Shown here one piece after another: positions 7,054 through 55,699 of a DNA stretch of 64,000 nt. The notes under the pieces are model-generated. The model searched no databases, was not told the DNA's origin, and saw only the letters and a list, made by a program, of their open reading frames with translations. The translations under genes and the position numbers were made by a program. The stretch is from contig CP009416.1 in NCBI GenBank assembly GCA_000818095.1, positions 1,472,501 to 1,536,500 on the forward strand. Reading direction: 5' to 3'. Within the stretch, counting starts at the first letter, position 1. Every line of letters starts with the position of its first letter. The DNA is from Jeotgalibacillus malaysiensis (lineage in GTDB: Bacteria; Bacillota; Bacilli; Bacillales; Jeotgalibacillaceae).

Positions 7054-7056
7054 TCA

Positions 7057-7096
7057 AAAGCCTTTTCTGATCTTAAGATCAGAAAAGGCTTTTTGC
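7057..7096 (+). terminator. rho-independent terminator after pbpB
   Basis: AAAGCCTTTTCTGATC and GATCAGAAAAGGCTTT form a 16-bp stem around TTAA, ending in a T run. Confidence 0.93.
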
Positions 7097-19525: not shown

Positions 19526-20332
19526 ATGAATAAGGGCCAGACAAATACATTTCTGGAGTCATCTAAGTGGAAACAGCAATTCCCCGGCCTGACTGCGCTT
19601 TTTACAACTAAGAATGGCGGTGTCAGTAAGGGGTATTATTCAACTTTAAATACAGGGCTACATGTAAACGATGAAAACCATACTGTTGTGCAAAACCGAA
19701 AAATCGTTGCAGAGCACAGCGGATGGGAATTAAATAAATGGATCTACGCAGACCAGGTGCATGGTACACGTGTCGTTCAGGTAACCTCCCGTCATGCGGG
19801 TATGGGGACTGAGGCTTATCATGAGGCAGTGAAAGCAGCTGATGGTCTCTGGACTTTTGACAGTGGAATCGGTTTATCTCTCGGTTTTGCTGATTGTGTT
19901 CCAATCTATTTTGCTGAGCCTGAAACCGGATATGCCGGTGTGGCTCATGCAGGATGGAAAGGATCAGTCGGTAACATAGGCGGCGAAATGATCAGGCAGG
20001 CAGCTGAAGCAGGAGTCTGTGCAGATAAAATGCACGTATTGATCGGACCTTCTATTGGAGAATGCTGCTACCGGGTAGATCAGCGAGTCATTGACCGGAT
20101 TCCTGATCAAATTAATAAAAAAGATATATATGAGACGCTCGGAGAAGGTCAGTTCAGACTGAATCTGCAGGAGCTGAATAAACAGCTGATTATAGGTGCG
20201 GGCGTGAAAGAGCAGCATATTGAAGTAAGCGGGTTGTGTACAGCCTGCCAGAAAGACCTTTTCTTTTCTCATAGAAGAGATCAGGGGAAAACAGGCAGAA
20301 TGTCGGCAGTCATTGGATGGAGGGAATCGTAG
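19526..20332 (+). CDS. ylmD: YlmD/PgeF family peptidoglycan editing factor (multicopper-oxidase-like fold)
   Basis: A 268-residue protein of the YfiH/PgeF family. Visible signatures are the LNTGLHVNDEN segment, DQVHGTRVVQV, FADCVPIYFAEPETGYAGVAHAGWKG with conserved Cys and His, and SIGECCYRVD. The E. coli member removes misincorporated amino acids from wall precursors, and other members show purine nucleoside activity; the role here is inferred from the family. ATG at 19526 is preferred over TTG at 19517, which is too close to the AAAGG site. Confidence 0.9.
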   Translation: MNKGQTNTFLESSKWKQQFPGLTALFTTKNGGVSKGYYSTLNTGLHVNDENHTVVQNRKIVAEHSGWELNKWIYADQVHGTRVVQVTSRHAGMGTEAYHEAVKAADGLWTFDSGIGLSLGFADCVPIYFAEPETGYAGVAHAGWKGSVGNIGGEMIRQAAEAGVCADKMHVLIGPSIGECCYRVDQRVIDRIPDQINKKDIYETLGEGQFRLNLQELNKQLIIGAGVKEQHIEVSGLCTACQKDLFFSHRRDQGKTGRMSAVIGWRES

Positions 20333-21004
20333 GTGAAAGTATCTGAAAAGCTTGAGAACATTAACAAAGAAATATATTCAGCTTGTGAGCGTGCAGGCAG
20401 GCAGCCTGATACAGTTAAAATTGTAGCAGTCACAAAATATGTCAGTAATGAACGGACGCAGGAGGCAGTTGATGCTGGACTGGTTCACCTTGGTGAGAAC
20501 CGTCCTGAAGGCTTTCATGAAAAGAAAGAAGCTGTGTCTGGAAATATAAAGTGGCACTATATCGGGTCACTGCAGTCCAGAAAAGTGAAAAACGTCATTA
20601 ATGACATTGATTATCTTCATTCACTGGACAGGCTGTCACTTGTTAAAGAAATTCAAAAACGCGCTGAACATCAAGTTGATTGTTTTATCCAGATAAATGT
20701 GTCAGGAGAAGAACAAAAACATGGACTTTCTCCAGAAAATGCGGCACATTTTGTCGAAGATCTGGCAAACTATGATAAAATAAATGTAGTTGGATTAATG
20801 ACAATGGCGCCGCTGACTGAAGATGAAGAGGTGATCCGCAGCTGTTTCAAACAGCTGGCAGTGCTGAGAGACTCGATTGCTGCAAAAAATCTGCAGCATG
20901 CACCGTGCACTGAGCTGTCAATGGGAATGTCAAACGACTTCACCATTGCCATTGAAGAAGGAGCTACCTACATAAGAATCGGATCTTCGCTCGTCGGAGA
21001 ATAA
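20333..21004 (+). CDS. ylmE: YggS/PLPBP family pyridoxal-phosphate homeostasis protein
   Basis: A 223-residue alanine-racemase-like TIM barrel with the PLP-binding lysine in VAVTKYVS near residue 36, [20 protein letters not shown] and the phosphate-binding C-terminus [11 protein letters not shown]. Family members buffer PLP and influence amino acid pools and have no known catalytic turnover. It starts with GTG immediately after the ylmD stop, so the two are coupled. It lies in the ylm cluster between division genes. Confidence 0.92.
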
Positions 21005-21021
21005 AGGAGGAAATCCGTGTT

Positions 21022-21432
21022 ATGGGGATGAAAACGAAATTCAAAGATTTTTTCTTTGGTGAAGAAGAGGAATACATGGAAGAAGTATCTGAAGAAACGC
21101 CTGAAGAAGTAAGAAGCATCAGAAAACCTTCTCAAAAACAGAATGTTGTCAGCCTGCAAAGTGTACAGCAGTCTTCTAAAATGGTTTTAATGGAGCCGAG
21201 AATGTACGCAGAAGCACAGGAAATTGCTGATCATCTTAAAAGTCACCGAGCTGTTGTAGTAAATCTTCAGCGTATTAGCAAAGACCAGGCAAAACGGATC
21301 GTTGATTTCCTCAGCGGAACAGTCTATGCCATTGGCGGTGACATTCAGCGGGTTGGAACAGATATCTTTTTATGTACACCTGATAATATAGAGGTCAGCG
21401 GAAATATTACTGATCTGATTCAAGAAGATTAA
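21022..21432 (+). CDS. sepF: cell division protein SepF
   Basis: A 136-residue protein with an N-terminal amphipathic membrane-binding helix ([13 protein letters not shown]), an acidic linker, and a C-terminal globular domain with [23 protein letters not shown] and the glycine-bearing [17 protein letters not shown]. SepF polymerises into rings and anchors FtsZ to the membrane, overlapping FtsA in function. ATG 21022 follows AAAGGAGG. Its normal length and place behind ylmE support the call. Confidence 0.95.
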
Positions 21433-21455
21433 AATGATGGGTGGTTAAAAGCAGC

Positions 21456-21731
21456 ATGCAAAGTGTTTTAGCTTTAGTCTTTTCGATTTTAGATACATTA
21501 TTAACGTTTTTCAGTTTTGCGCTGATTATTTATATTTTGCTTTCATGGTTTCCTAATGCAAGAGAAAGCAGCTTCGGCCAGATCCTTGCAAAAATTTGTG
21601 AGCCTTACTTGGAGCCGTTTAGAAAAATCATACCACCTCTTGGAATGATTGATATCTCACCACTTGTTGCAATTATTGCACTTAACCTTGCAAGGTCAGG
21701 GCTGCAGCAACTATACGTTATGATTACTTAA
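21456..21731 (+). CDS. ylmG: YggT family membrane protein YlmG
   Basis: A protein of about 91 residues with two membrane helices around the conserved [13 protein letters not shown] and [28 protein letters not shown] segments of the YggT family. The family is linked to membrane or divisome organisation in bacteria and chloroplasts; the exact role is unknown. The start is uncertain: ATG 21456 matches the family's N-terminus best, while GTG 21441 would add five residues. A terminator follows. Confidence 0.9.
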
Positions 21732-21736
21732 AGAAC

Positions 21737-21767
21737 TAACCCGGTGACAATCACCGGGTTTTCTTTT
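21737..21767 (+). terminator. terminator after ylmG
   Basis: AACCCGGTGA pairs with TCACCGGGTT around a 3-nt loop, followed by TTCTTTT. It splits the ylm cluster before ylmH. Confidence 0.88.
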
Positions 21768-21784
21768 ATAAAGGATGTGAAACA

Positions 21785-22561
21785 ATGTCTGTTTATCAGC
21801 ATTTTCGTGAAGAAGAAAGAGGATTTATAGATCAGGTGATGGATTGGAAGCTGGATGTCGAGATGAAATATGCCCCGAGACTGACTGCTTTTCTTGATCC
21901 GCGTCAGCAGCATATTATGCAGTCGATTATCGGGTCGGCAGGTGACATAAAAGTGGCTTTTGAAGGAGGGGCGTCTGAGAGTGAAAGAAAAAGAGCCCTT
22001 ATTTATCCGGATTATCTTTCACCTGAACGTAGCGATTTTGAGCTTGTTCTCCTTAATGTCGGTTTTCCATCGAAGTTTGTCCAGCTCTCTCACGGTGACA
22101 TTTTAGGGTCACTCATGGGACTTGGGATTAAGCGGGAAACAATTGGCGATATTCTGACTCAAAGAGACCGGATTCAGCTCATAGCGACGAAAGAAATGAG
22201 GGATTTTCTCATTATGAATCTGGTTCAGGCAGGTAAAGCAAAGGTCAATGTATCTGAACTGAAATGGGAGGATATCATTCAGCCGGAGCATCAGTGGGCA
22301 GAAAAGAATGTACTGGTTTCTTCTATGCGACTGGATACTGTTCTCGCTGGAGCAGTGAACGTTTCAAGACAGAAAGCTCAGCTGCTCATACTGGGTGGTA
22401 AGGTAAAAGTGAACTTCAGGCAGGAAGAAAAAACTTCTTTTGAACTTGATCAGGGGGACATGATTTCTGTCCGTGGATATGGCAGAATACACGTAGGGGA
22501 GATCAGCGGAGTGACAAAGAAAGATAAAATCAGACTGAATTTTTATTTTCTGCAATCTTAA
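21785..22561 (+). CDS. ylmH: S4-domain RNA-binding protein YlmH
   Basis: A 258-residue protein with an N-terminal two-lobed domain (RLTAFLDPRQQHIMQSI, then ERKRALIYPDY) and a C-terminal S4 RNA-binding domain from about residue 180 (MRLDTVLAGAVNVSRQKAQ, ILGGKVKVNF, ISVRGYGRIHV). YlmH family proteins act with stalled 50S subunits and can add alanine tails in ribosome quality control, which links it functionally to rqcH in this same window. ATG follows AAAGGATGTG. Confidence 0.92.
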   Translation: MSVYQHFREEERGFIDQVMDWKLDVEMKYAPRLTAFLDPRQQHIMQSIIGSAGDIKVAFEGGASESERKRALIYPDYLSPERSDFELVLLNVGFPSKFVQLSHGDILGSLMGLGIKRETIGDILTQRDRIQLIATKEMRDFLIMNLVQAGKAKVNVSELKWEDIIQPEHQWAEKNVLVSSMRLDTVLAGAVNVSRQKAQLLILGGKVKVNFRQEEKTSFELDQGDMISVRGYGRIHVGEISGVTKKDKIRLNFYFLQS

Positions 22562-22580
22562 AGCAGGAATTAGAAGGATT

Positions 22581-22611
22581 TTTACACAAAGCGTCGAATC
22601 ATCAGTATAAT
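22581..22611 (+). promoter_or_regulatory. candidate sigma-A promoter for divIVA
   Basis: TTACAC (22582-22587) and a perfect TATAAT (22606-22611) are spaced 18 bp apart, 36 bp before the divIVA ATG. Confidence 0.6.
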
Positions 22612-22646
22612 GGAAGATAGATTATAAAGACTCGGAGGTGCACGTT

Positions 22647-23156
22647 ATGCCACTATCGCCACTCGATATACATAATAAAGATTTCAGCCGCGGATTCAGG
22701 GGCTATGATGAAGATGAGGTAAATGAATTTCTTGATCACGTGATGAGAGATTATGAACTGGTTCTGCGTGAAAAGAAAGAGCTTGAAGAAAAACTGAATA
22801 ACCACACTGAAAGGCTCGGACACTTTACAACAATTGAAGAAACACTCAATAAATCAATTGTAGTGGCTCAGGAAGCAGCTGAAGAAGTTAAGCGTAATGC
22901 AACAAAAGAAGCGAAGCTCATTGTGAAGGAAGCAGAAAAAAATGCTGATCGCATCGTGAACGAATCATTAACAAAAGCACGTAAAATTGCGCTTGAAATT
23001 GAAGATTTGAAAAAGCAGTCAAAGGTTTTCCGTACCCGTTTTAAGATGCTCATTGAAGCGCAGCTGGATCTGATCAGTCACGATGACTGGGATGAGCTCA
23101 TGGAATACGACCTTGATACAGAAGAACTGAAAAGCCTTACCCCTGAACACGAATAA
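22647..23156 (+). CDS. divIVA: septum/polar scaffold protein DivIVA
   Basis: A 169-residue coiled-coil protein. The N-terminal lipid-binding domain reads MPLSPLDIHNKDFSRGFRGY, with DEDEVNEFLDHVMRDYE following, then long heptad-rich coiled coils from about residue 30 to 150. DivIVA senses negative membrane curvature at septa and poles, and recruits Min proteins and, in sporulating cells, the chromosome anchor. ATG at 22647 is chosen because the ribosome site GGAGGTG ends just before it; a GTG at 22638 lies inside that site. Confidence 0.95.
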   Translation: MPLSPLDIHNKDFSRGFRGYDEDEVNEFLDHVMRDYELVLREKKELEEKLNNHTERLGHFTTIEETLNKSIVVAQEAAEEVKRNATKEAKLIVKEAEKNADRIVNESLTKARKIALEIEDLKKQSKVFRTRFKMLIEAQLDLISHDDWDELMEYDLDTEELKSLTPEHE

Positions 23157-23162
23157 GAAATA

Positions 23163-23191
23163 TTGACGTATCATATTTATGTTACTATAAT
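23163..23191 (+). promoter_or_regulatory. sigma-A promoter of ileS
   Basis: TTGACG (23163-23168), a 17-bp spacer and TATAAT (23186-23191) form a near-consensus promoter about 35 bp before the T-box leader. Confidence 0.85.
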
Positions 23192-23226
23192 AAAACTGTT
23201 AAAATGTAATTTATCATGCACTCATA

Positions 23227-23480
23227 TATTTAGATCAACTGTGATGGGAACAGTACGCTGATGATATACCTGCACTAGCGATTCGGGGATGGTGAAAGCC
23301 CGGAGCAGAATGTCAGCGGAAGATCATCCCTGAGTTTTCAGGCTGAATGAAGTAAGTCTGAACGTGTGACAGCGTTACCCGTTACTTAAGTGGAAAAAGT
23401 CTGATCTTTTTCTATAAGGGTGGTACCGCGTGAAGCACAAGCTCTCTCGTCCCTTTACCAGGGATGGGGGAGCTTTTTAT
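23227..23480 (+). ncRNA. T-box leader (isoleucine-specific) controlling ileS
   Basis: The T-box sequence AAGGGTGGTACCGCG is at 23416-23430. Upstream, Stem I shows the AGTA bulge (ACAGTA) opposite a specifier loop flanked by CGCTGA/TCAGCG and GGGA/TCCC pairing. The specifier codon is ATC at 23323-23325, an isoleucine codon. The terminator is AAGCTCTCTCGTCCCT pairing with AGGGATGGGGGAGCTT (23439-23475), then a T run. Uncharged tRNA-Ile would stabilise the antiterminator and allow ileS expression. Leader and promoter together fill the 352-bp gap after divIVA. Confidence 0.95.
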
Positions 23481-23508
23481 ATTTTCTATGAACACAGGAG
23501 GAGAAAAA

Positions 23509-26286
23509 ATGGAATACAAAAATACTTTATTAATGCCAAAAACGGCATTTCCAATGCGGGGTAACCTGCCAAACCGTGAGCCTGAAATGCAGGAAAAGTG
23601 GGCAGAAATGGATATCTACAAAAAAGTACAGGAAAGAACAGCAGGAAGACCATTATTTGTTCTGCATGATGGTCCTCCTTATGCCAATGGAGACCTTCAT
23701 ATGGGTCATGCGCTGAACAAAGTGCTAAAAGACTTCATCGTACGATACAAATCTATGAGCGGATTTCAGGCGCCATACGTTCCGGGCTGGGACACTCATG
23801 GTCTTCCGATTGAACAGGCGCTTACTAATAAAGGTGTGAAGCGTAAAGAAATGACTGTTGCTGAATTCCGTGAAAAGTGTGCTGAATATGCTCTGCAGCA
23901 GATCGATAATCAACGCACACAGTTCAAACGGATCGGTGTCCGCGGTGACTGGGATAACCCATACATTACGCTGAACCCGGAATATGAAGCAGAACAGATC
24001 CGTGTATTCGGTGAAATGGCTAAAAAAGGTTATATCTATAAAGGGAAAAAGCCCGTCTACTGGTCTCCATCAAGTGAATCTGCACTTGCTGAAGCAGAAA
24101 TTGAATATCAGGATAAGCGTTCTGCTTCTATTTATGTATCATTTGATGTGAAAGATGGCAAAGGGAAGCTGGATCAGGATACAGCTTTTGTGATCTGGAC
24201 GACTACGCCATGGACGATTCCTGCCAACCTGGCAATCGCACTGCACCCTAAGCTTGAATACGTGGTTGTAGACACAGACAGCAAGAAGTTCGTCGTTGCA
24301 AAAGAATTGCTTGAAAGCGTTCAGGAAACAATGGGCTGGGAAAAAGCTGATGTGACAGCAACTTACAAGGGCTCAGAACTTGAGCATGTTACTGCAGCAC
24401 ATCCTTTATATAACCGTGAATCTCTCGTTGTACTTGGAGAGCATGTAACAACGGAAGCCGGAACAGGTTGTGTTCATACTGCACCGGGACACGGTGAAGA
24501 TGACTTTATCGTTGGAAAACAGTACGGACTTGACGTACTTTGCCCGGTTGATGACCGTGGTGTGTTCACTGATGAGGCTCCTGGCTTTGAAGGGTTATTC
24601 TATGATAAAGCCAACAAACCGATCACTGAAAAACTTGATGAAGCAGGCGCATTATTAAAGCTTGAATTCTTCACGCACAGTTATCCGCATGACTGGAGAA
24701 CAAAAAAGCCGATCATCTTCCGTGCAACGGCACAATGGTTTGCTTCTATTGATAAGTTCAGAGAGGAGCTTATGCAGGCCGTACAGGATACAAAGTGGGT
24801 TCCGGCATGGGGAGAAACCAGACTGTTTAACATGGTACGTGACCGTGGTGACTGGTGTATTTCAAGACAGCGTGCATGGGGTGTGCCGATTCCTGTATTC
24901 TACGCAGAAAACGGAGATGCGATCATCACTGAAGAAACGATTGATCATGTATCTAACCTTTTTGCAGAGCACGGGTCTAATATCTGGTTCGAACGCGATG
25001 CAAAAGATCTTCTTCCTGAAGGATTCTCTCATGAAGGAAGTCCGAATGGCCGCTTTACAAAAGAACAGGATATTATGGATGTATGGTTCGACAGCGGTTC
25101 TTCCCATCAATCAGTGCTAAAAGTCCGAGATGAGCTTCAGCGTCCTGCTGACCTTTATCTTGAGGGAAGTGACCAGTATCGTGGCTGGTTCAACTCTTCA
25201 TTGACAACTGGTGTTGCTGTAACTGGTAAAGCACCATACAAAGGCGTGTTGAGCCACGGATTTGCACTTGATGGCAATGGCCGTAAGATGAGTAAATCTC
25301 TTGGTAACGTTGTATTGCCTTCTAAGGTGATGAATCAGCTTGGAGCGGATATCCTTCGCTTATGGGTTGCTTCAGTTGACTACCAGGCAGATGTGCGCGT
25401 ATCTGATCCGATTTTAAAACAGGTTGCTGAAGTTTACCGTAAGATGCGTAATACACTTCGTTTCCTGCTTGCGAACCTGGCTGATTTTGACCCGTCAAAA
25501 GATGCTGTATCGTTTGATGACTTAAGAGAAGTTGACCAGTTTATGATGGTCAGACTAAATCAGGTTGTAAAATCAGTGACAAATGCATACGAAAATTATG
25601 AGTTTGCATCAATCTATCACACGATTAATAACTTCTGTACGACAGACCTGAGCTCGTTCTACCTTGATTTTGCAAAAGACATTCTTTATATCGAGGCTGA
25701 AAATCATCAGGATCGCCGTGCAATGCAGACAGTGATGTATGAGTCGCTTGTATCGCTTGTGAAGCTGCTATCTCCAATTCTTTCTCATACAGCTGATGAA
25801 GTATGGGCGTTCATCCCTGGCGTTGAAAAAGAAAGTGTGCAGTTGACTGATATGCCAGAGGCGAAAACCTATGATAATGAGAAAGCACTGCTTGAAAAGT
25901 GGAATGCTTTCCTTGATGTAAGAGATGATGTATTAAAAGCGCTTGAGGAAGCGAGAAGCACGAAGCTGATCGGTAAGTCTCTGGCAGCGAAAGTAACGTT
26001 GTACGCAGATGAAAAGACGCATGAGCTACTTTCGTCTGTAAATGAGGATCTGAAGCAGCTGTTTATTGTTTCTGATTTTGAGCTTGCTGCTTCATCTGAC
26101 AGTGTACCTGAACAGGCTATCAAGTTTGATGGTCATACAGTTGCTGTTGAAAAAGCTGAAGGTGAAACGTGTGAAAGATGCTGGACTGTGACAACTGACG
26201 TTGGTAAAGACAGTGATCACCCGACACTTTGCACAAGATGTGCGACTGTTGTAAAAGAAAATTATGCAGATGTAGCTGCAGAATAA
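23509..26286 (+). CDS. ileS: isoleucyl-tRNA synthetase
   Basis: A 925-residue class I synthetase charging tRNA-Ile. HMGH ([15 protein letters not shown]) lies near residue 66 and KMSKS ([10 protein letters not shown]) near residue 595. The CP1 editing domain lies between ([16 protein letters not shown]), and a C-terminal Cys4 zinc site is present (CERCWTV and CTRCATVV). The start is ATG at 23509 behind AGGAGGAG; an in-frame codon at 23464 lies inside the T-box terminator. The length matches the Bacillus enzyme. Confidence 0.97.
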
Positions 26287-26293
26287 ATGATTT

Positions 26294-26330
26294 GGAGCTG
26301 CCGGTTTAACATACCGGCAGCTTTTCATTT
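26294..26330 (+). terminator. terminator after ileS
   Basis: GAGCTGCCGGT pairs with ACCGGCAGCTT around a 7-nt loop, followed by TTTTCATTTT. Confidence 0.88.
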
Positions 26331-26342
26331 TGTAAGTGCAGA

Positions 26343-26482
26343 GATTTTGGCTCATTCCATGCCTGCAGGCAGGCATGGCTTTTCAAGCAGAGCTTGAAAA
26401 GTACAGAATAAGAAAAGAGAGCGGAAATTCAAGCTAGCTTGATTTCCGCTCTCTTTTCTTATTCTGTAAATGAGCCAAAATC
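26343..26482. repeat. 140-nt four-armed cloverleaf palindrome between ileS and lspA
   Basis: A perfect 14-bp outer stem, GATTTTGGCTCATT (26343-26356) with AATGAGCCAAAATC (26469-26482), encloses three abutting hairpins. Hairpin 1 is 26357-26378 (10-bp stem CCATGCCTGC, 2-nt loop). Hairpin 2 is 26379-26401 (10-bp stem CTTTTCAAGC, 3-nt loop). Hairpin 3 is 26402-26468 (about 33-bp stem with a single bulged T). Every base belongs to an arm and the junction has no unpaired base. It lies in the 336-bp gap where B. subtilis carries ylyA; the rest of the gap holds the ileS terminator and a weak lspA promoter. Confidence 0.92.
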
Positions 26483-26573
26483 GAACGAGGTTATAAACAA
26501 ATCATTGTTATTGTTCATATTCGGACAAACTATTTGCAAAACATCTGCTGTAATCATGCCGGAGACCCTGAAT

Positions 26574-26584
26574 TATGCTACAAT
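26574..26584 (+). promoter_or_regulatory. candidate extended -10 promoter for lspA
   Basis: TACAAT at 26579-26584 preceded by TG one base upstream (TATGCTACAAT). No good -35 is visible. It lies 38 bp before the lspA GTG. Confidence 0.4.
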
Positions 26585-26622
26585 ACTTTAAGGGTTTGCA
26601 ACGAGATAACGGAGGTAGACAA

Positions 26623-27111
26623 GTGATCTATTATTTGCTGGCTTTATTTATTATTGTAGTGGACCAGCTGACAAAATGGCTGGTAGTAAGGAATATGGAA
26701 GTAGGGGAATCAATTAATGTGATTGATGGTTTCTTCTACCTGACCTCGCATCGTAATACTGGTGCAGCATGGGGCATGCTCGAAGGACAGATGTGGCTGT
26801 TTTATATTGTCACACTGGTTGTCATTGCAGGAATTCTTTATTACTATCACAAACATGCTAAAGGAAATAAATTATTCAGTGCAAGTCTGATGGTGTTACT
26901 CGGCGGAGCAGTCGGTAACTTTATTGACCGGATTTTCAGGCAGGAAGTTGTAGACTTTTTACAATTTACATTCTTCAACTTTATTTTTAATATTGCTGAT
27001 GCAGCACTGACAATTGGAGTAATCATGTTATTTCTTCAAATGATTTTAGAAGAAGTGCAAGAAAAGAGGAAGAAAAATGGAAAACATTCAACACTCAATA
27101 CAGGAAAGTGA
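26623..27111 (+). CDS. lspA: lipoprotein signal peptidase II
   Basis: A 162-residue polytopic aspartic peptidase (four membrane helices) that removes signal peptides from prolipoproteins after lipidation. The family blocks are present: [33 protein letters not shown] and [11 protein letters not shown], the last two with the catalytic Asp pair. Start GTG at 26623 lies behind ACGGAGGTAG. Its 3' end overlaps the next gene by 35 bp in a different frame. Confidence 0.95.
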
Positions 27112-27988
27112 AAAAGGAAAACGCCTTGATGCAGTTCTCGCAGGGCTTGAATATAACTGGTCCCGAACACAGGTGCAGCAGTGGATTAAAGAAGGTAACG
27201 TTACCGTTAACGGTGCTGCAACAAAACCGAATTACAAATGCGTACCAGGTGCAGAAGTACAGGTAGAGATCCCTGATCCTGAACCGCTTGATGTCGAAGC
27301 TGAAGAAATGAACCTTGATATCTATTACGAGGATGCTGATGTACTAGTCGTTAACAAACCAAAAGGGATGGTTGTGCATCCTGCACCGGGACACCTTACC
27401 GGCACACTTGTTAACGGTCTGATGGCACATTGTAAAGACCTTTCAGGAATCAATGGCATACTGCGTCCGGGGATTGTCCACCGTATCGATAAAGATACTT
27501 CAGGACTATTAATGGTAGCAAAAAATGATTCTGCACATGAAAAACTTGTTCAGCAGCTTGTAGATAAGACTGTGACAAGAAAGTACACAGCTGTTGTCCA
27601 TGGTGTGATCACACATGGAGCAGGAACAATTGATGCACCGATCGGCCGTGATAAAAAAGATCGCCAGAGTATGACAGTGGTTGATGGCGGTAAACAGGCA
27701 GTCACTCATTTTAATGTCATCGAGCGGTTTAAAGACTTTACACTAGTTGAGTGTATTCTTGAAACAGGACGCACACATCAAATTCGTGTGCATATGAAAC
27801 ATATCGGCTTCCCGTTAGCAGGCGATCCAAAATATGGACCGCGTAAAACGCCTGATTTGAATGGACAGGCACTTCACGCAGGGGTGTTAGGATTTATTCA
27901 TCCTTCAAGTGGAGAATACATCGAATTTGAAGCACCTGCACCAGAAAGTTTCAATGAATTTATCGAAAAACTTAAAAAAGAACATTGA
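27077..27988 (+). CDS. ylyB: RluD-family pseudouridine synthase YlyB
   Basis: A 303-residue RluA/RluD family enzyme isomerising uridines to pseudouridine in large-subunit rRNA. It has an N-terminal S4 domain ([20 protein letters not shown], then [11 protein letters not shown]), the catalytic motif [18 protein letters not shown] with the active Asp near residue 138, and the [16 protein letters not shown] motif. It begins inside lspA (ATG 27077, ribosome site AGAGGAAG), a conserved neighbour pair in Bacillales. The exact target uridines are not deducible. Confidence 0.93.
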
Positions 27989-28035
27989 CATTGTTCGCAT
28001 GAAAGTTTAAACTGAGAACAACTTCATAACTGAAA

Positions 28036-28066
28036 CCTTTAATCCGGTCCAGAGAGACAGGAAAGG
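28036..28066 (+). promoter_or_regulatory. PyrR-binding hairpin (attenuator 1, pyrR leader)
   Basis: CCTTT and AAAGG close a hairpin with the conserved loop TCCAGAGAG. PyrR with UMP is known to bind this structure and favour the downstream terminator. Confidence 0.88.
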
Positions 28067-28093
28067 CTTAGCGAATGTACCAGGTATATTTCT

Positions 28094-28687
<594 letters not shown>

Positions 28688-28689
28688 AT

Positions 28690-28721
28690 CCTTTAATGCA
28701 GCCCCGAGAGGCTGGCAAAGG
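28690..28721 (+). promoter_or_regulatory. PyrR-binding hairpin (attenuator 2, before pyrP), variant loop
   Basis: CCTTT and AAAGG again close the hairpin, but the loop reads GCCCCGAGAGGC instead of the GTCCAGAGAG core seen in attenuators 1 and 3. The GAGAGG part is conserved while CA is replaced by CC. Confidence 0.8.
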
Positions 28722-28750
28722 AGACGACGGGGGATTTCTATATCCTCATG

Positions 28751-28789
28751 AACCTCTTTGCCATGCTTTCTTGGCAAAGAGGTTTTTTT
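28751..28789 (+). terminator. attenuator 2 terminator before pyrP
   Basis: AACCTCTTTGCC pairs with GGCAAAGAGGTT around a 10-nt loop, followed by seven T including the stem end. Confidence 0.92.
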
Positions 28790-28806
28790 ATGAGGAGGAA
28801 ACGCAA

Positions 28807-30129
28807 ATGACAAATACACAAACAGCAAAACCTATACTTGATGTAGAAGAAAAACCAAAATTAAACCAGTGGCTCACTCTGAGTCTGCAGCACCTTTTTG
28901 CTATGTTTGGCGCAACAGTGCTTGTACCAATGCTAGTTGGATTAAGCCCGGGTACAGCACTTTTATCAAGCGGACTCGGCACGATAGCCTACCTGATCAT
29001 TACGAAAGGCCAAATTCCTGCCTATCTCGGTTCATCTTTCGCTTTTATTGCACCGATTATAGCAGCAACTGAAATAGGTGGCCCGCAGGCCGCAATGCTC
29101 GGCGCATTTTTTGCAGGGCTTGCATACGGTGCAGTTGCAATGCTGATCTATAAGTTCGGCGTAAACTGGTTAATGAGAATCTTACCGCCAGTTGTTGTAG
29201 GACCAGTCATTATTGTAATTGGATTAAGCCTTGCAGGAACAGCTGTGAACATGGCAATGTATGAAAATCCATTAGCAGATCCAGCGGAATTTATCTATAG
29301 CGGAACGCATATTACAGTAGCACTGATCACACTTGCCATCACAATTATCGCGTCGATCTACTTTAAGGGCTTCTTCGGACTTATTCCGGTCCTTGTAGGA
29401 ATTACAGGCGGATACATTGCAGCGATGTTTGCCGGTCTGGTTAACTTTCAGCAGGTAATTGATGCACCGTGGTTTGCAGTACCTGAACTTTATATGCCAT
29501 TTGTAGATTACACACCAGCATTTTCATGGACAGCCATCGCAATTATGGTACCAGTTGCCGTTGTAACACTTTCAGAACATACAGGTCATCAAATGGTTGT
29601 TAGTAAAGTAGTAGGAAGAAACTTTTTAGAAAAGCCGGGTCTGCACCGCTCACTGCTCGGTGACGGTGTTGCCACAATGATCGCATCAATGATCGGCGGA
29701 CCGCCAAATACAACTTATGGTGAAAACATTGGCGTACTTGCGATAACAAGAATCTTCAGTGTCTTTGTGATCGGCGGCGCAGCAGTCCTTGCAATCTTCT
29801 TTGGATTTGTCGGTAAGGTATCAGCCTTGATCAGCTCAATACCAACACCGGTAATGGGCGGGGTATCGATCCTGCTGTTTGGAATTATTGCTTCAAGCGG
29901 ACTCAGAATGCTGATTGAAGGAAAAGTTGATTTCTCATACAAACGTAACCTGATCATCGCTTCAGTCATTATGATCATCGGAGTCGGAGGCGCATATGTA
30001 CAATTTACAGAATCATTCGTCCTCCCCGGCATGGCACTTGCAGCTATCATCGGAATTGCTCTGAATCTGATCTTACCGGGCCGCAAGCCTGAAGAAGAAA
30101 CACTATTTAACGAAAATAAAGCCGCATAA
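28807..30129 (+). CDS. pyrP: uracil permease PyrP
   Basis: A 440-residue nucleobase:cation symporter-2 (UraA-like) transporter with about 12-14 membrane segments bringing uracil into the cell. Family blocks include QHLFAMFGATVLVPMLVGLSP, SSFAFIAPI, EHTGHQMVVSKVVGRNF and GGPPNTTYGENIGVLA. ATG 28807 follows ATGAGGAGGAA directly after the attenuator terminator; the frame upstream of it runs through the leader and is not coding. It is placed between pyrR and pyrB as in Bacillus. Confidence 0.95.
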   Translation: MTNTQTAKPILDVEEKPKLNQWLTLSLQHLFAMFGATVLVPMLVGLSPGTALLSSGLGTIAYLIITKGQIPAYLGSSFAFIAPIIAATEIGGPQAAMLGAFFAGLAYGAVAMLIYKFGVNWLMRILPPVVVGPVIIVIGLSLAGTAVNMAMYENPLADPAEFIYSGTHITVALITLAITIIASIYFKGFFGLIPVLVGITGGYIAAMFAGLVNFQQVIDAPWFAVPELYMPFVDYTPAFSWTAIAIMVPVAVVTLSEHTGHQMVVSKVVGRNFLEKPGLHRSLLGDGVATMIASMIGGPPNTTYGENIGVLAITRIFSVFVIGGAAVLAIFFGFVGKVSALISSIPTPVMGGVSILLFGIIASSGLRMLIEGKVDFSYKRNLIIASVIMIIGVGGAYVQFTESFVLPGMALAAIIGIALNLILPGRKPEEETLFNENKAA

Positions 30130-30133
30130 CAAT

Positions 30134-30168
30134 CCTTTTAAATGAAGTCCAGAGAGGCTTTCAAAAGG
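30134..30168 (+). promoter_or_regulatory. PyrR-binding hairpin (attenuator 3, before pyrB)
   Basis: CCTTTT and AAAAGG enclose a loop with the canonical GTCCAGAGAGGC. Confidence 0.9.
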
Positions 30169-30192
30169 GTTTCTGACAGTACACGTCTGTCT

Positions 30193-30233
30193 AAAACCGC
30201 TTTTTGAGCCTGCTCTCAAAAAGCGGTTTTTTT
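30193..30233 (+). terminator. attenuator 3 terminator before pyrB
   Basis: A 16-bp stem, AAAACCGCTTTTTGAG with its complement, encloses a 6-nt loop and is followed by seven T. Confidence 0.93.
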
Positions 30234-30278
30234 AATAAATCATGATATAAATACAGACCATTATAAATGAACAACTCA

Positions 30279-30353
30279 GCTGACCCTTGGAGGACAGGAC
30301 GGAGACTCCCGCCAGGGGGCAGGAAAGCGCAGTCCTGTCCGGAAAGGGTCAGC
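30279..30353 (+). repeat. dispersed structured repeat, short form, copy B (pyrB leader)
   Basis: A 75-nt element with a perfect 10-bp outer stem (GCTGACCCTT / AAGGGTCAGC), then GGAG, a perfect inner stem (GACAGGAC / GTCCTGTC), and a conserved loop containing GGAGACTCCCG and GGGGGCAGGAAAGCGCA. It lies after attenuator 3 and before the pyrB ribosome site, so pyrB-pyrE mRNA would carry it in the leader. Copy C at the far end of the operon is the same length in opposite orientation. Confidence 0.9.
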
Positions 30354-30387
30354 GGTTATAAAGTGATATTAATAAGGAGGGTTAACC

Positions 30388-31293
30388 ATGCATTTTCTTA
30401 CACTTGATGAACTGACAGTTGATGATATTTATGAAGTACTTCACCAGGCAGAAGCACTGAAAAATCACAAGCTGCTTTCTAGACCGGACCTGTACGCAGT
30501 CAACCTGTTTTTCGAAAACAGCACAAGAACAAAGTGCAGCTTTGAAATGGCACAGAGAAAACTTGGTATGAACGTCCTTTCATTTGATGCGGGCACAGCT
30601 TCAATCAGTAAGGGTGAGTCATTATATGACACGGTAAAAACACTTGAAGCAATCGGAGTAGATGTTGCAGTGATTCGTCACAGTGAGGAAAGATATTTTG
30701 ATGCGCTGAAAGATAAAGTATCTATCTCCCTGATCAACGGGGGTGATGGAATGGGGCACCACCCTTCACAATGCATGCTAGACCTGCTTACGATCTATCA
30801 GGAATTTGGAAGCTTTAAGGGCTTGAATGTCACGATTGCAGGTGATATCAGACACAGCCGGGTTGCTCGCTCCAACACATATGCACTGAAAAGGCTAGGA
30901 GCAAATGTGAGCTTCTCAGGTCCAAAAGCCTGGCGGGACCCTGAAATAGGAGATGTTTCATTTATTGAAATGGATCAGGCTGTTAAAGAAAGTGACGTAC
31001 TCATGCTTTTGCGTGTGCAGCATGAAAGACATGCATTTGGAGAAAACTTCACAAAACAGGAGTATCACAATCAGTACGGACTGACTTTAGAAAGAGAAAA
31101 AAAGATGAAAAAAAACAGTATCATCATGCATCCTGCTCCTGTGAACAGAGGCGTGGAAATTGCAGATGAGCTGGTTGAGTGCGAAAGATCACGCATTTTT
31201 AAACAAATGAATAACGGCGTTTTCACCAGAATGGCGATGCTTCAATATGTGCTTGCAAAAAGAGAGGAGACAAAACATGAACTTATTAATTAA
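30388..31293 (+). CDS. pyrB: aspartate carbamoyltransferase catalytic chain
   Basis: A 301-residue enzyme condensing carbamoyl phosphate and aspartate to carbamoyl aspartate. The carbamoyl-phosphate loop [15 protein letters not shown] is near residue 48, and [15 protein letters not shown] and MHPAPVNRG carry the other substrate contacts. No regulatory chain gene is nearby, as in other Bacilli. The ATG follows AAGGAGGG. Its end overlaps pyrC by 17 bp. Confidence 0.96.
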
Positions 31294-32545
31294 AGGTGCA
31301 AATGTATTTGGATACGGAGTAACGGACGTCAGAATCTCTGAAGGCAAAATTCAATCAATTGGTGATTGTTCACCTATACATAATGAGGAGGTCATTGAGG
31401 CTTCAGGAAAGACACTCTCCCCGGGGTTTGTAGATGTACACATTCATTTAAGAGAACCGGGCGGAGAACATAAAGAAACAATCAAAACGGGCACAGAGGC
31501 TGCAGCGCGCGGAGGATATACGCTAGTTTGTGCAATGCCTAACACCAGGCCGGTTCCGGATGACATTGAAACACTTAAAAATATCCAGAAAAAGATCACT
31601 GAAGATGCATTGATTCCGGTTCTGCCATACGCATCTATTACAAAAAATCTGGCTGGTAAAGAGATAAATGATTTAGAAGCACTTGCAGCACAGGGTGCTT
31701 TTGCCTTCACGGATGATGGAGTCGGTATTCAAAGTGCTGATCAGATGCTTCAGGTGATGAAAAGGGCTGCTGCATTAGGAAAAGCAGTCGTTGCTCACTG
31801 TGAAGACAACAGTCTGATCCACGGCGGGTGCATGCATGAAGGGAAACGCTCAAGCGAACTAGGACTGCCTGGTATTCCATCAGTGTGCGAGTCTGTTCAG
31901 ATCGCACGCGATGTGCTGCTAGCTGAAGCAGCTGACTGCCACTACCACGTCTGCCACGTCTCTACTAAAGAATCTGTCAGAGTAATACGTGATGCGAAAA
32001 AAGCTGGCATAAAAGTAACAGCTGAAGTTACACCGCACCACCTGTTATTAAATGAAGAAGCAATTCCAGATGATGACGCGAACTTCAAAATGAATCCGCC
32101 GCTTAGGTCTAAAGAAGATCAGCAGGCATTGATCGAAGGGCTTGAAGATGGAACGCTCGATTTCATTGCAACAGACCATGCGCCACATGCAAAAGAGGAA
32201 AAAGATGAAGGAATGCTGAGAGCGCCATTTGGTATAACAGGACTCGAAACAGCATTTCAATTATTAAATACAGCCTTTGTAGAAACCGGACGATGGACGA
32301 TTGACCAGCTGATTGAATGGCTGGCAGTAAAACCGGCAGCTGTTTTCGGACTAGATGCGGGGAAACTTGCAGAAAAAGCATTTGCAGATCTGATATTACT
32401 GGATCTGAAAGAAAAAAGTGAGATTGATGCAGAAGGTTTCAGATCTAAAGGAAAAAACACACCATTTAATCATCAGCAGGTCAGTGGAAAAGTTGTGCTG
32501 ACAATCAGCAAAGGACAAATTGTATTTCAGGAGGAGCTCGTATGA
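31277..32545 (+). CDS. pyrC: dihydroorotase (class I)
   Basis: A 422-residue zinc amidohydrolase that cyclises carbamoyl aspartate to dihydroorotate. The metal-binding [10 protein letters not shown] is near residue 57, with further His in [11 protein letters not shown] and the Asp of [17 protein letters not shown] 31277 follows AGAGGAGACAAA and gives the standard [10 protein letters not shown] start, overlapping the end of pyrB. It is the second structural gene of the operon. Confidence 0.96.
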
Positions 32546-55636: not shown

Positions 55637-55646
55637 TATATAGATT

Positions 55647-55684
55647 AAAAAGACCTTAAGATCATGATGATCTTAAGGTCTTTT
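55647..55684. terminator. bidirectional terminator between spoVM and rpmB
   Basis: AAAAGACCTTAAGATCA pairs with TGATCTTAAGGTCTTTT around a 3-nt loop, with A and T runs on both sides, serving both convergent genes. Confidence 0.93.
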
Positions 55685-55699
55685 CACTTTAATCATTTA

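Follow-up and report, generated by a model that had tools for sequence, protein, structure and literature searches.

Between ileS and lspA of Jeotgalibacillus malaysiensis lies a stretch of 140 nt that folds into a cloverleaf, which raises the question of whether it is a functional RNA, a folded DNA with a role of its own, or the trace of a mobile element. We re-measured it in the window, that is, the whole stretch of 64,000 nt that was analysed (contig CP009416.1), and obtained the geometry that the original prediction had given: a 14-bp outer stem round three hairpins of 22, 23 and 67 nt, meeting in a junction without an unpaired base. The features of the site, in window coordinates, are the following (a dot marks features to which no strand is assigned):

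23464..26286, strand +: ileS ORF, named from its sequence and the T-box leader before the ORF
26294..26324, strand +: terminator-like hairpin after ileS, upstream of the cloverleaf, from a terminator/promoter scan
26343-26482: whole cloverleaf, 140 nt, zero unpaired junction bases, outer stem round three hairpins
26343..26356, strand.: 5' arm of the outer stem, GATTTTGGCTCATT, 14 bp, 100% paired with the 3' arm
26357..26378, strand.: hairpin 1, 22 nt, 9 bp, 4-nt loop
26379..26401, strand.: hairpin 2, 23 nt, 10 bp, 3-nt loop AGA
26402..26468, strand.: hairpin 3, 67 nt, 27 perfect pairs and a 4-bp tip helix past one bulged T
26469..26482, strand.: 3' arm of the outer stem, AATGAGCCAAAATC
26579..26584, strand +: TACAAT, -10 of a probable lspA promoter downstream of the cloverleaf, inferred from conservation
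26623..27111, strand +: lspA, with an inferred GTG start after GGAGGT (ORF listed from 26575)

Geometry and position of the cloverleaf

Folded as single-stranded DNA, the 140 nt reach -63.7 kcal/mol, compared with -17.4 (sd 2.7) in 200 dinucleotide shuffles, none of which was as good (z -17.1). The 67-nt arm had been described as a nearly perfect inverted repeat of 33 bp; it is indeed a long palindrome, of 31 bp (27 perfect and 4 at the tip) rather than 33, and its 27-bp pair is the longest perfect one among the 22 inverted repeats listed in the window with arms of at least 14 and a spacing of at most 200. Two other strong palindromes in the window lie at 7056-7093 (a perfect 19-bp pair with no spacer) and at 55641-55691 (25 bp paired at 88%, with a 1-nt spacer). 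The CAAGC/GCTTG core noted in hairpins 2 and 3 is shared in the window and is no feature of the family: among 64 copies listed, hairpin 2 is mostly CTTTCAGC/GCTGAAAG and hairpin 3, the most variable arm of the cloverleaf, differs widely. The commonest 5' arm of the outer stem in copies elsewhere is ATTTTTGGCTCATT, against GATTTTGGCTCATT in the window.

The site lies after the terminator-like hairpin of ileS and before lspA, in agreement with the position first assigned to it. Since the cloverleaf is placed between terminator and promoter, any effect on ileS or lspA would be exerted as DNA and not as RNA. The TACAAT hexamer falls inside the string (A/G)TGCTACAAT, which is kept in 11 of 12 genus sequences (G007 differs); a simple promoter scan did not report it at 26579..26584. 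The statements that the structure is neither a tRNA nor a terminator hold, as no Rfam family, tRNA included, reaches its gathering score at 26343-26482, the scan reports no intrinsic terminator (a G+C-rich stem followed by a T run) within these positions, and ileS is followed by a terminator-like hairpin of its own. Elsewhere in the window, Rfam models place the T-box leader before ileS at 23232-23457 (RF00230, 127 bits) and two PyrR binding-site leaders at 28686-28791 and 30130-30234 (RF00515).

The same locus in Jeotgalibacillus

Seven of the 12 genomes of the genus carry the cloverleaf between ileS and lspA, and the carriers form one group. Homologous cloverleaves stand there in G000, G004, G011 and G001; G002 and G009 have the same architecture at 141 nt, but their hairpins 1 and 3 differ much in sequence; and G006 has the cloverleaf without hairpin 3. 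In G011 the loop of hairpin 2 reads TCT, the reverse complement of the AGA in the window. No cloverleaf lies between ileS and lspA in G003, G005, G007, G008 and G010, and these five of 12 genomes are relatives lacking the element, as had been named beforehand as support for mobility. A covariance model found nothing in G005, G007 and G008; G003 (E 0.12) and G010 (E 0.09) gave a single weak match each, away from this locus. In an ileS tree with a midpoint root, the seven carriers make up one side of a branch with support 100/99, present in 100% of 200 bootstrap trees, and because of this a single entry before the seven species diverged would be the simplest history; hairpin 3 would then have been lost in G006, which rests on a fork of modest support (84/97). 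The suggestion of a recent insertion can be rejected, since seven species share the cloverleaf at this place. An assembly artefact, the outcome that was to refute the structure, is unlikely as well, because the fold recurs at this locus, with compensated differences, in sister species whose genomes were assembled separately.

Covariation was assessed in six of the seven carriers, with G006 left out. In these six rows, 32 of 65 pairs are changed on both sides and 98.5% of cells are paired; none of 500 shuffles was as high, and slid controls were at most 51% paired. Invariant pairs make up 11 of 14 in the outer stem, 8 of 10 in hairpin 2 and 7 of 31 in hairpin 3. Comparing genomes two by two, we find the element mostly more alike than its flanks in G000/G004, G000/G011 and G004/G001, and not more alike in G011/G001 and G002/G009. 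For G000/G011 the likeness is 27/28 in the outer stem, 0.87 in hairpin 2 and 0.85 in hairpin 3, as against 0.68 upstream and 0.62 downstream. This pattern suggests constraint on the outer stem and hairpin 2, and arm correction or chance may also explain it.

Around the seven ileS-lspA copies no terminal repeats or target duplication are recognisable, and among 28 tests for remnants of ends the lowest p values were 0.019 and 0.046, none of them convincing. A search of its own genome with the element returned the element, matches of its palindromic arms and short chance-like matches with E of at least 0.5; the covariance model gave one further weak partial match there (E 0.2), and the 64-kb window holds no second copy.

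Relatives across the order

A degenerate pattern made from Jeotgalibacillus outer stems alone matched five stretches in the genome_contigs collection, three from Jeotgalibacillus and two from Rossellomorea aquimaris, and the latter two proved to be full cloverleaves at other loci. Of 299 genomes sampled from the order, 46 have matches with E <= 1e-3, mostly at other loci, to a covariance model (R1) built from eight copies from these two genera. The 46 belong to 14 of the 116 genera sampled (the matches of G061 and G063 are weak), and 30 of them lie outside g1 and g28 (g28 is probably Rossellomorea). Among 398 genomes sampled across the phylum, R1 matched three at E <= 1e-5, and these belong to that order as well. 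In the search of the order at most ten candidates per genome were scored, making all copy numbers lower bounds, and a few draft-genome copies hold N or break inside hairpin 3, through either assembly trouble at the palindrome or masking, by which counts in drafts may be low. A 23-base pattern (at most 3 mismatches; short forms give two sites each) has 85 sites in G107, 34 in G113, 24 in G135, 23 in G259, 7 in G029, 5 in G258 and 4 in G139, and 0 in G000, G002 and G009, the pattern being blind to the Jeotgalibacillus variants; run backwards as a control, it had 0 in all ten genomes. In many listed folds of hairpin 3, some 7 bp separate the 4-nt tip loop from an asymmetric internal loop beneath it; GAGAAAGCNNGCTTTCTC and GAGCAAATNNATTTGCTC are examples of such tips.

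Mobile units with two kinds of ends

In G107 and G135, both of one other genus, the core lies within GGCTATGTTAGC...TAACATAGCC as part of a ~195-bp element with GGCTATGTTA ends. Of 37 loci scanned for target duplications, 31 gave a parsed copy and 6 gave none, and 27 of the 31 parsed copies are flanked by 8-bp duplications equal in at least 7 of 8 positions, where 1.04 would be expected and the shuffle maximum was 5; the other four are L092 (a wrong parse), L094, L095 and L159. Copies elsewhere with changes at the target site, the other kind of support for mobility that had been named, are thus at hand. Fifteen parsed units measure 194-197 bp, nine measure 106 bp and the rest fall between. The 106-bp units hold only the outer stem and hairpin 1, and all nine also have target duplications of 7 or 8 out of 8. 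At least 15 short forms are found among the G107 matches listed, and G107:C7:878422-878489 and similar stretches, with both GGCTATGTTA-type ends in 68-131 bp total, are further short forms of the same MITE. By eye, similar ends stand beside single copies in other families, at L075 (G071) and L077 (G089), and on one side at L080 (G055). The G107/G135 copies are thus short, non-coding and dispersed in many copies, with terminal inverted repeats and target-site duplications. As for the transposase of the GGCTATGTTA ends, the profiles PF13610, PF12762 and PF01610 gave nothing over the cut-off in G107 and G135; IS6, IS1595 and ISL3 are unsupported as parents, these three profiles staying below the cut-off, and GGCTnTGTTA is absent from the loci of the weak PF13610 matches and of the G055 ISL3 matches.

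Genome G113 has nine copies of 194-195 bp with CTATATAAGTTGAA-type, ISBs2/IS630-like ends. An ISBs2-family IS on a Geobacillus plasmid (NZ_CP020032.1) has the ends CTATATAAGTTGAA and CTATATAAATTGAA, of which the first is the same over 14 bases as in the G113 copies and the second is one base off; the blast match pointing to ISBs2 was short (E 0.7), and in plasmid searches five plasmid records match the ends of the G113 unit. IS630 prefers CTAG targets. A C precedes the left TATATAAG in 8 of 9 copies, and in 8 of 9 the right end is followed by a G. A TA duplication in CTAG would leave this pattern, which gives the G113 copies ISBs2-type ends together with a TA target in CTAG. Since one core is found between GGCTATGTTA ends in G107/G135 and between ISBs2-like ends in G113, the core travels with two kinds of ends.

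A probable relic of a transposable element

Judged by these sequences, the family is one of MITEs that have a four-way junction as their interior and come with either of two kinds of ends. We therefore regard it as likely that the cloverleaf in the window is the interior of such a non-autonomous transposable element, inserted between ileS and lspA before the split of seven Jeotgalibacillus species and retained at that site. The window copy itself shows neither terminal inverted repeats nor a target duplication, and it is taken as a relic because its ends are no longer recognisable; homology of the core is what ties the Jeotgalibacillus ileS-lspA copies to a MITE, and such descent is most likely in light of the dispersed relatives in other genera of the order, which share the fold and resemble these copies in the motifs of outer stem and hairpin 2. 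A transposase acting in trans on the ends would have moved the ~195-bp unit, with the cloverleaf as its interior. Each palindromic arm would serve to correct its partner when the polymerase switches templates; such events would change both arms at once, invert hairpin loops and be able to invert the whole interior within the outer stem, and arm correction of this kind would let the fold outlive the ends. The original suspicion of a palindromic four-way junction with mobility is borne out, as relatives lack the element at the locus and copies elsewhere have target duplications. Mobility by hairpin formation finds less support; with their terminal inverted repeats and duplicated target sites, the G107/G135 and G113 copies resemble ordinary MITEs.

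How the copies change

Sister copies were compared in 15 of 16 sister pairs (L124/L142 was skipped for length), giving 34 changes on both sides of a stem pair and 23 that were one-sided or broken. In 12 disjoint pairs drawn from these, 27 stem pairs had changed on both sides to Watson-Crick pairs (19 transversions, 8 transitions), 18 had changed on one side (6 transversions, 12 transitions), 1 had changed to a non-pair and 696 were unchanged. Transversions cannot pass through a G.U step, and they are in excess among the two-sided changes (Fisher p 0.03; p 0.16 without G002/G009).

Loops point in the same direction. Among 85 copies, 73 gave a hairpin-2 loop and 58 a hairpin-1 loop, and the hairpin-2 loops come in reverse-complement pairs: AGA 9 and TCT 14, AAA 12 and TTT 9, ATA 3 and TAT 3, and more rarely GGA 4 and TCC 1, GAA 2 and TTC 1. 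These counts overstate the number of events, because copies within one genome are not independent; the 57 hairpin-2 loops from a choice of 69 copies include AGA 9, TCT 8, TTT 8 and AAA 5. Between the orthologues L092 (its second copy) and L110, AGA has become TCT with one other base changed. A larger inversion is seen between G002 and G009. Downstream of the element the two are identical at 130 of 130 bases, and upstream at 51 of 57, yet no more than 51 of 70 columns agree in hairpin 3. One interior is reversed relative to the other: 93 of 117 columns match after flipping, compared with 64 of 138 without it.

Homogenised arms and inverted spacers are marks of template switching, according to the accessible text of PMC8604942 and PMC8794818. 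Arm correction by template switching at the DNA level explains the changes better than a selected RNA, on account of the concerted change of arms, the loop inversion, the one inverted interior and mismatches without strand bias. The hairpin evolution described in those two papers likewise involves arm homogenisation, multiple compensatory changes and inversion of loops or spacers; as far as that text goes, it concerns RNA genes and yeast coding DNA, whereas here the substrate is a mobile element and one case spans the whole interior between the outer arms.

DNA, RNA or something else

It is doubtful, though conceivable, that the core is folded DNA, as a single strand or a cruciform, read by a transposase, resolvase or host protein, so that outer stem and hairpin 2 keep their sequence across several genera and two kinds of ends. 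The six rows agree with this, in that the outer stem and hairpin 2 keep their letters and hairpin 3 mainly its pairing, as do the same core between different ends and a fold that outlasted the ends. However, no binding partner or cleavage site is known, the element is not more alike than its flanks in two of the genome comparisons (G011/G001 and G002/G009), and the nine 106-bp forms with target duplications indicate that hairpins 2 and 3 are dispensable at least after insertion. One could also speculate, a shade more cautiously still, that the cloverleaf constitutes a self-standing DNA module: a four-way junction that is recognised in its folded DNA form and has been taken up independently by different transposons because it helps in moving or in being tolerated, for example if extrusion brings the two ends together; its arms would diversify by template switching, and outer stem and hairpin 2 would stay readable.

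A structured RNA, be it an sRNA or a cis element, with a selected fold could account for the two-sided changes in 32 of 65 pairs in the six rows, and for an element that, in three of five comparisons (G000/G011 among them), is for the most part better conserved than its flanks, but we consider it unlikely. RNA tolerates G.U on its own strand, and for a selected RNA of either strand one of G.T and A.C would be tolerated, not both. In 69 chosen copies folded without G.U, single stem mismatches show no such strand preference, with 19 G.T, 18 A.C and 26 others (near-duplicate copies of G113, G107 and G135, L021/G006, reverse-strand matches of the same copies and L068, at the same place as L113, were left out). 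In insertion context, 46 of 85 copies lie between tandem neighbours, 14 between divergent and 5 between convergent ones, with 20 unclear, on ORF calls too crude to be used beyond the orientation count, which is 27 the same as and 19 opposite to the tandem neighbours (p 0.30). The interior is inverted between two sister species, the element sits between terminator and promoter, and in addition to the lack of an Rfam match in the window, the cores of nine relatives' loci match only microRNA hairpin models, below gathering scores. Strand symmetry, orientation and position thus point to DNA, although the mismatches may be young and unselected.

That the structure is a transcription terminator or insulator kept for the neighbouring genes is very unlikely. 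The site between ileS and lspA and the largely invariant outer stem would suit it, but the outer stem opens with T and closes with A, opposite to what a terminator tail would show; a terminator-like hairpin already follows ileS, G006 does without hairpin 3, and five of 12 genomes do without the element. Parvovirus ends occur in flip and flop forms, which a cloverleaf with an invertible interior resembles, yet capture of a viral or plasmid terminal repeat or a rolling-hairpin origin in the chromosome, in line with the early comparison to a viral ITR, is extremely improbable, given that a G107 copy matches nothing in phages or plasmids, that two exact patterns match nothing in viral contigs, that no replication gene occurs among the neighbouring ORFs read, and that the copies are dispersed MITEs. 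A retron msr-msd is unlikely, the neighbours being ileS and lspA on a reading of the ORFs of 20000-32000, and no constant tag of the REP/RAYT kind (GTAG or CGTC) was seen by eye beside the core among the copies listed.

Comparison with known repeats

MITE-like repeats with modular folded interiors are already known, as BOX and RUP illustrate in the accessible part of PMC3049150. BOX, of Streptococcus pneumoniae and S. suis, is likewise a small modular intergenic repeat with terminal repeats, target duplications, optional inner modules and a predicted fold, and in S. suis the inner module boxB is likewise shared between two different pairs of end modules. Compared by description, the present family is unlike BOX in having a four-way junction of ~140 bp whose arms pair almost perfectly and are variable. 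RUP of S. pneumoniae, also from the part of PMC3049150 available, is non-autonomous with IS630-like ends, to be compared with the ISBs2-like ends and CTAG/TA targets in G113; it is a simple 107-bp unit, whereas the cloverleaf core also occurs between other ends. Dispersed folded repeats are likewise found in other Firmicutes, namely bcr1 (B. cereus group) and Efa-1 (E. faecalis) with 147-167 bp, Bhal-1 (B. halodurans) with 74 bp, and EFAR (enterococci), as given in the accessible text of PMC2267715 and PMC3733652. Efa-1 is there a pair of adjacent stem-loops and bcr1 is specific to the B. cereus group, unlike the cloverleaf. It is by these partial descriptions that the cloverleaf is set apart from Efa-1 and bcr1, and a link to one of the four repeats may exist, with Bhal-1 above all. 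In the open-access literature searched (subscription papers lay outside the scope) we found no description of a four-way-junction architecture with two sets of ends.

The copies add a bacterial MITE family with a complete four-way-junction interior; it is represented in 14 of the 116 genera sampled from one order, in two of them by weak matches only. Orthologous and dispersed copies together document how long palindromes persist and evolve in nature: paired transversions, loop flips, the flip of a whole interior and the loss of an arm can be read from them directly. They also carry a warning: because DNA palindromes can correct their own arms, covariation alone, even in 32 of 65 pairs, is no proof of a functional RNA.

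Further cloverleaf loci

Two further cloverleaf loci, L101/L103 and L102/L104, occur in G009 and G002 and only in these two of the 12 genus genomes; their outer stems are unusual, with GAAGGTTAATCATT in L101 and AAAACTGGCGTATT in L102. In R. aquimaris, the cloverleaf at L046:3152-3291 sits between ORFs resembling tig and clpX, and similar copies are present in G258, G139 and G111 (L127, L131 and L135), with some compensated change. The L046/L127/L131/L135 cloverleaf is probably a second old fixed insertion.
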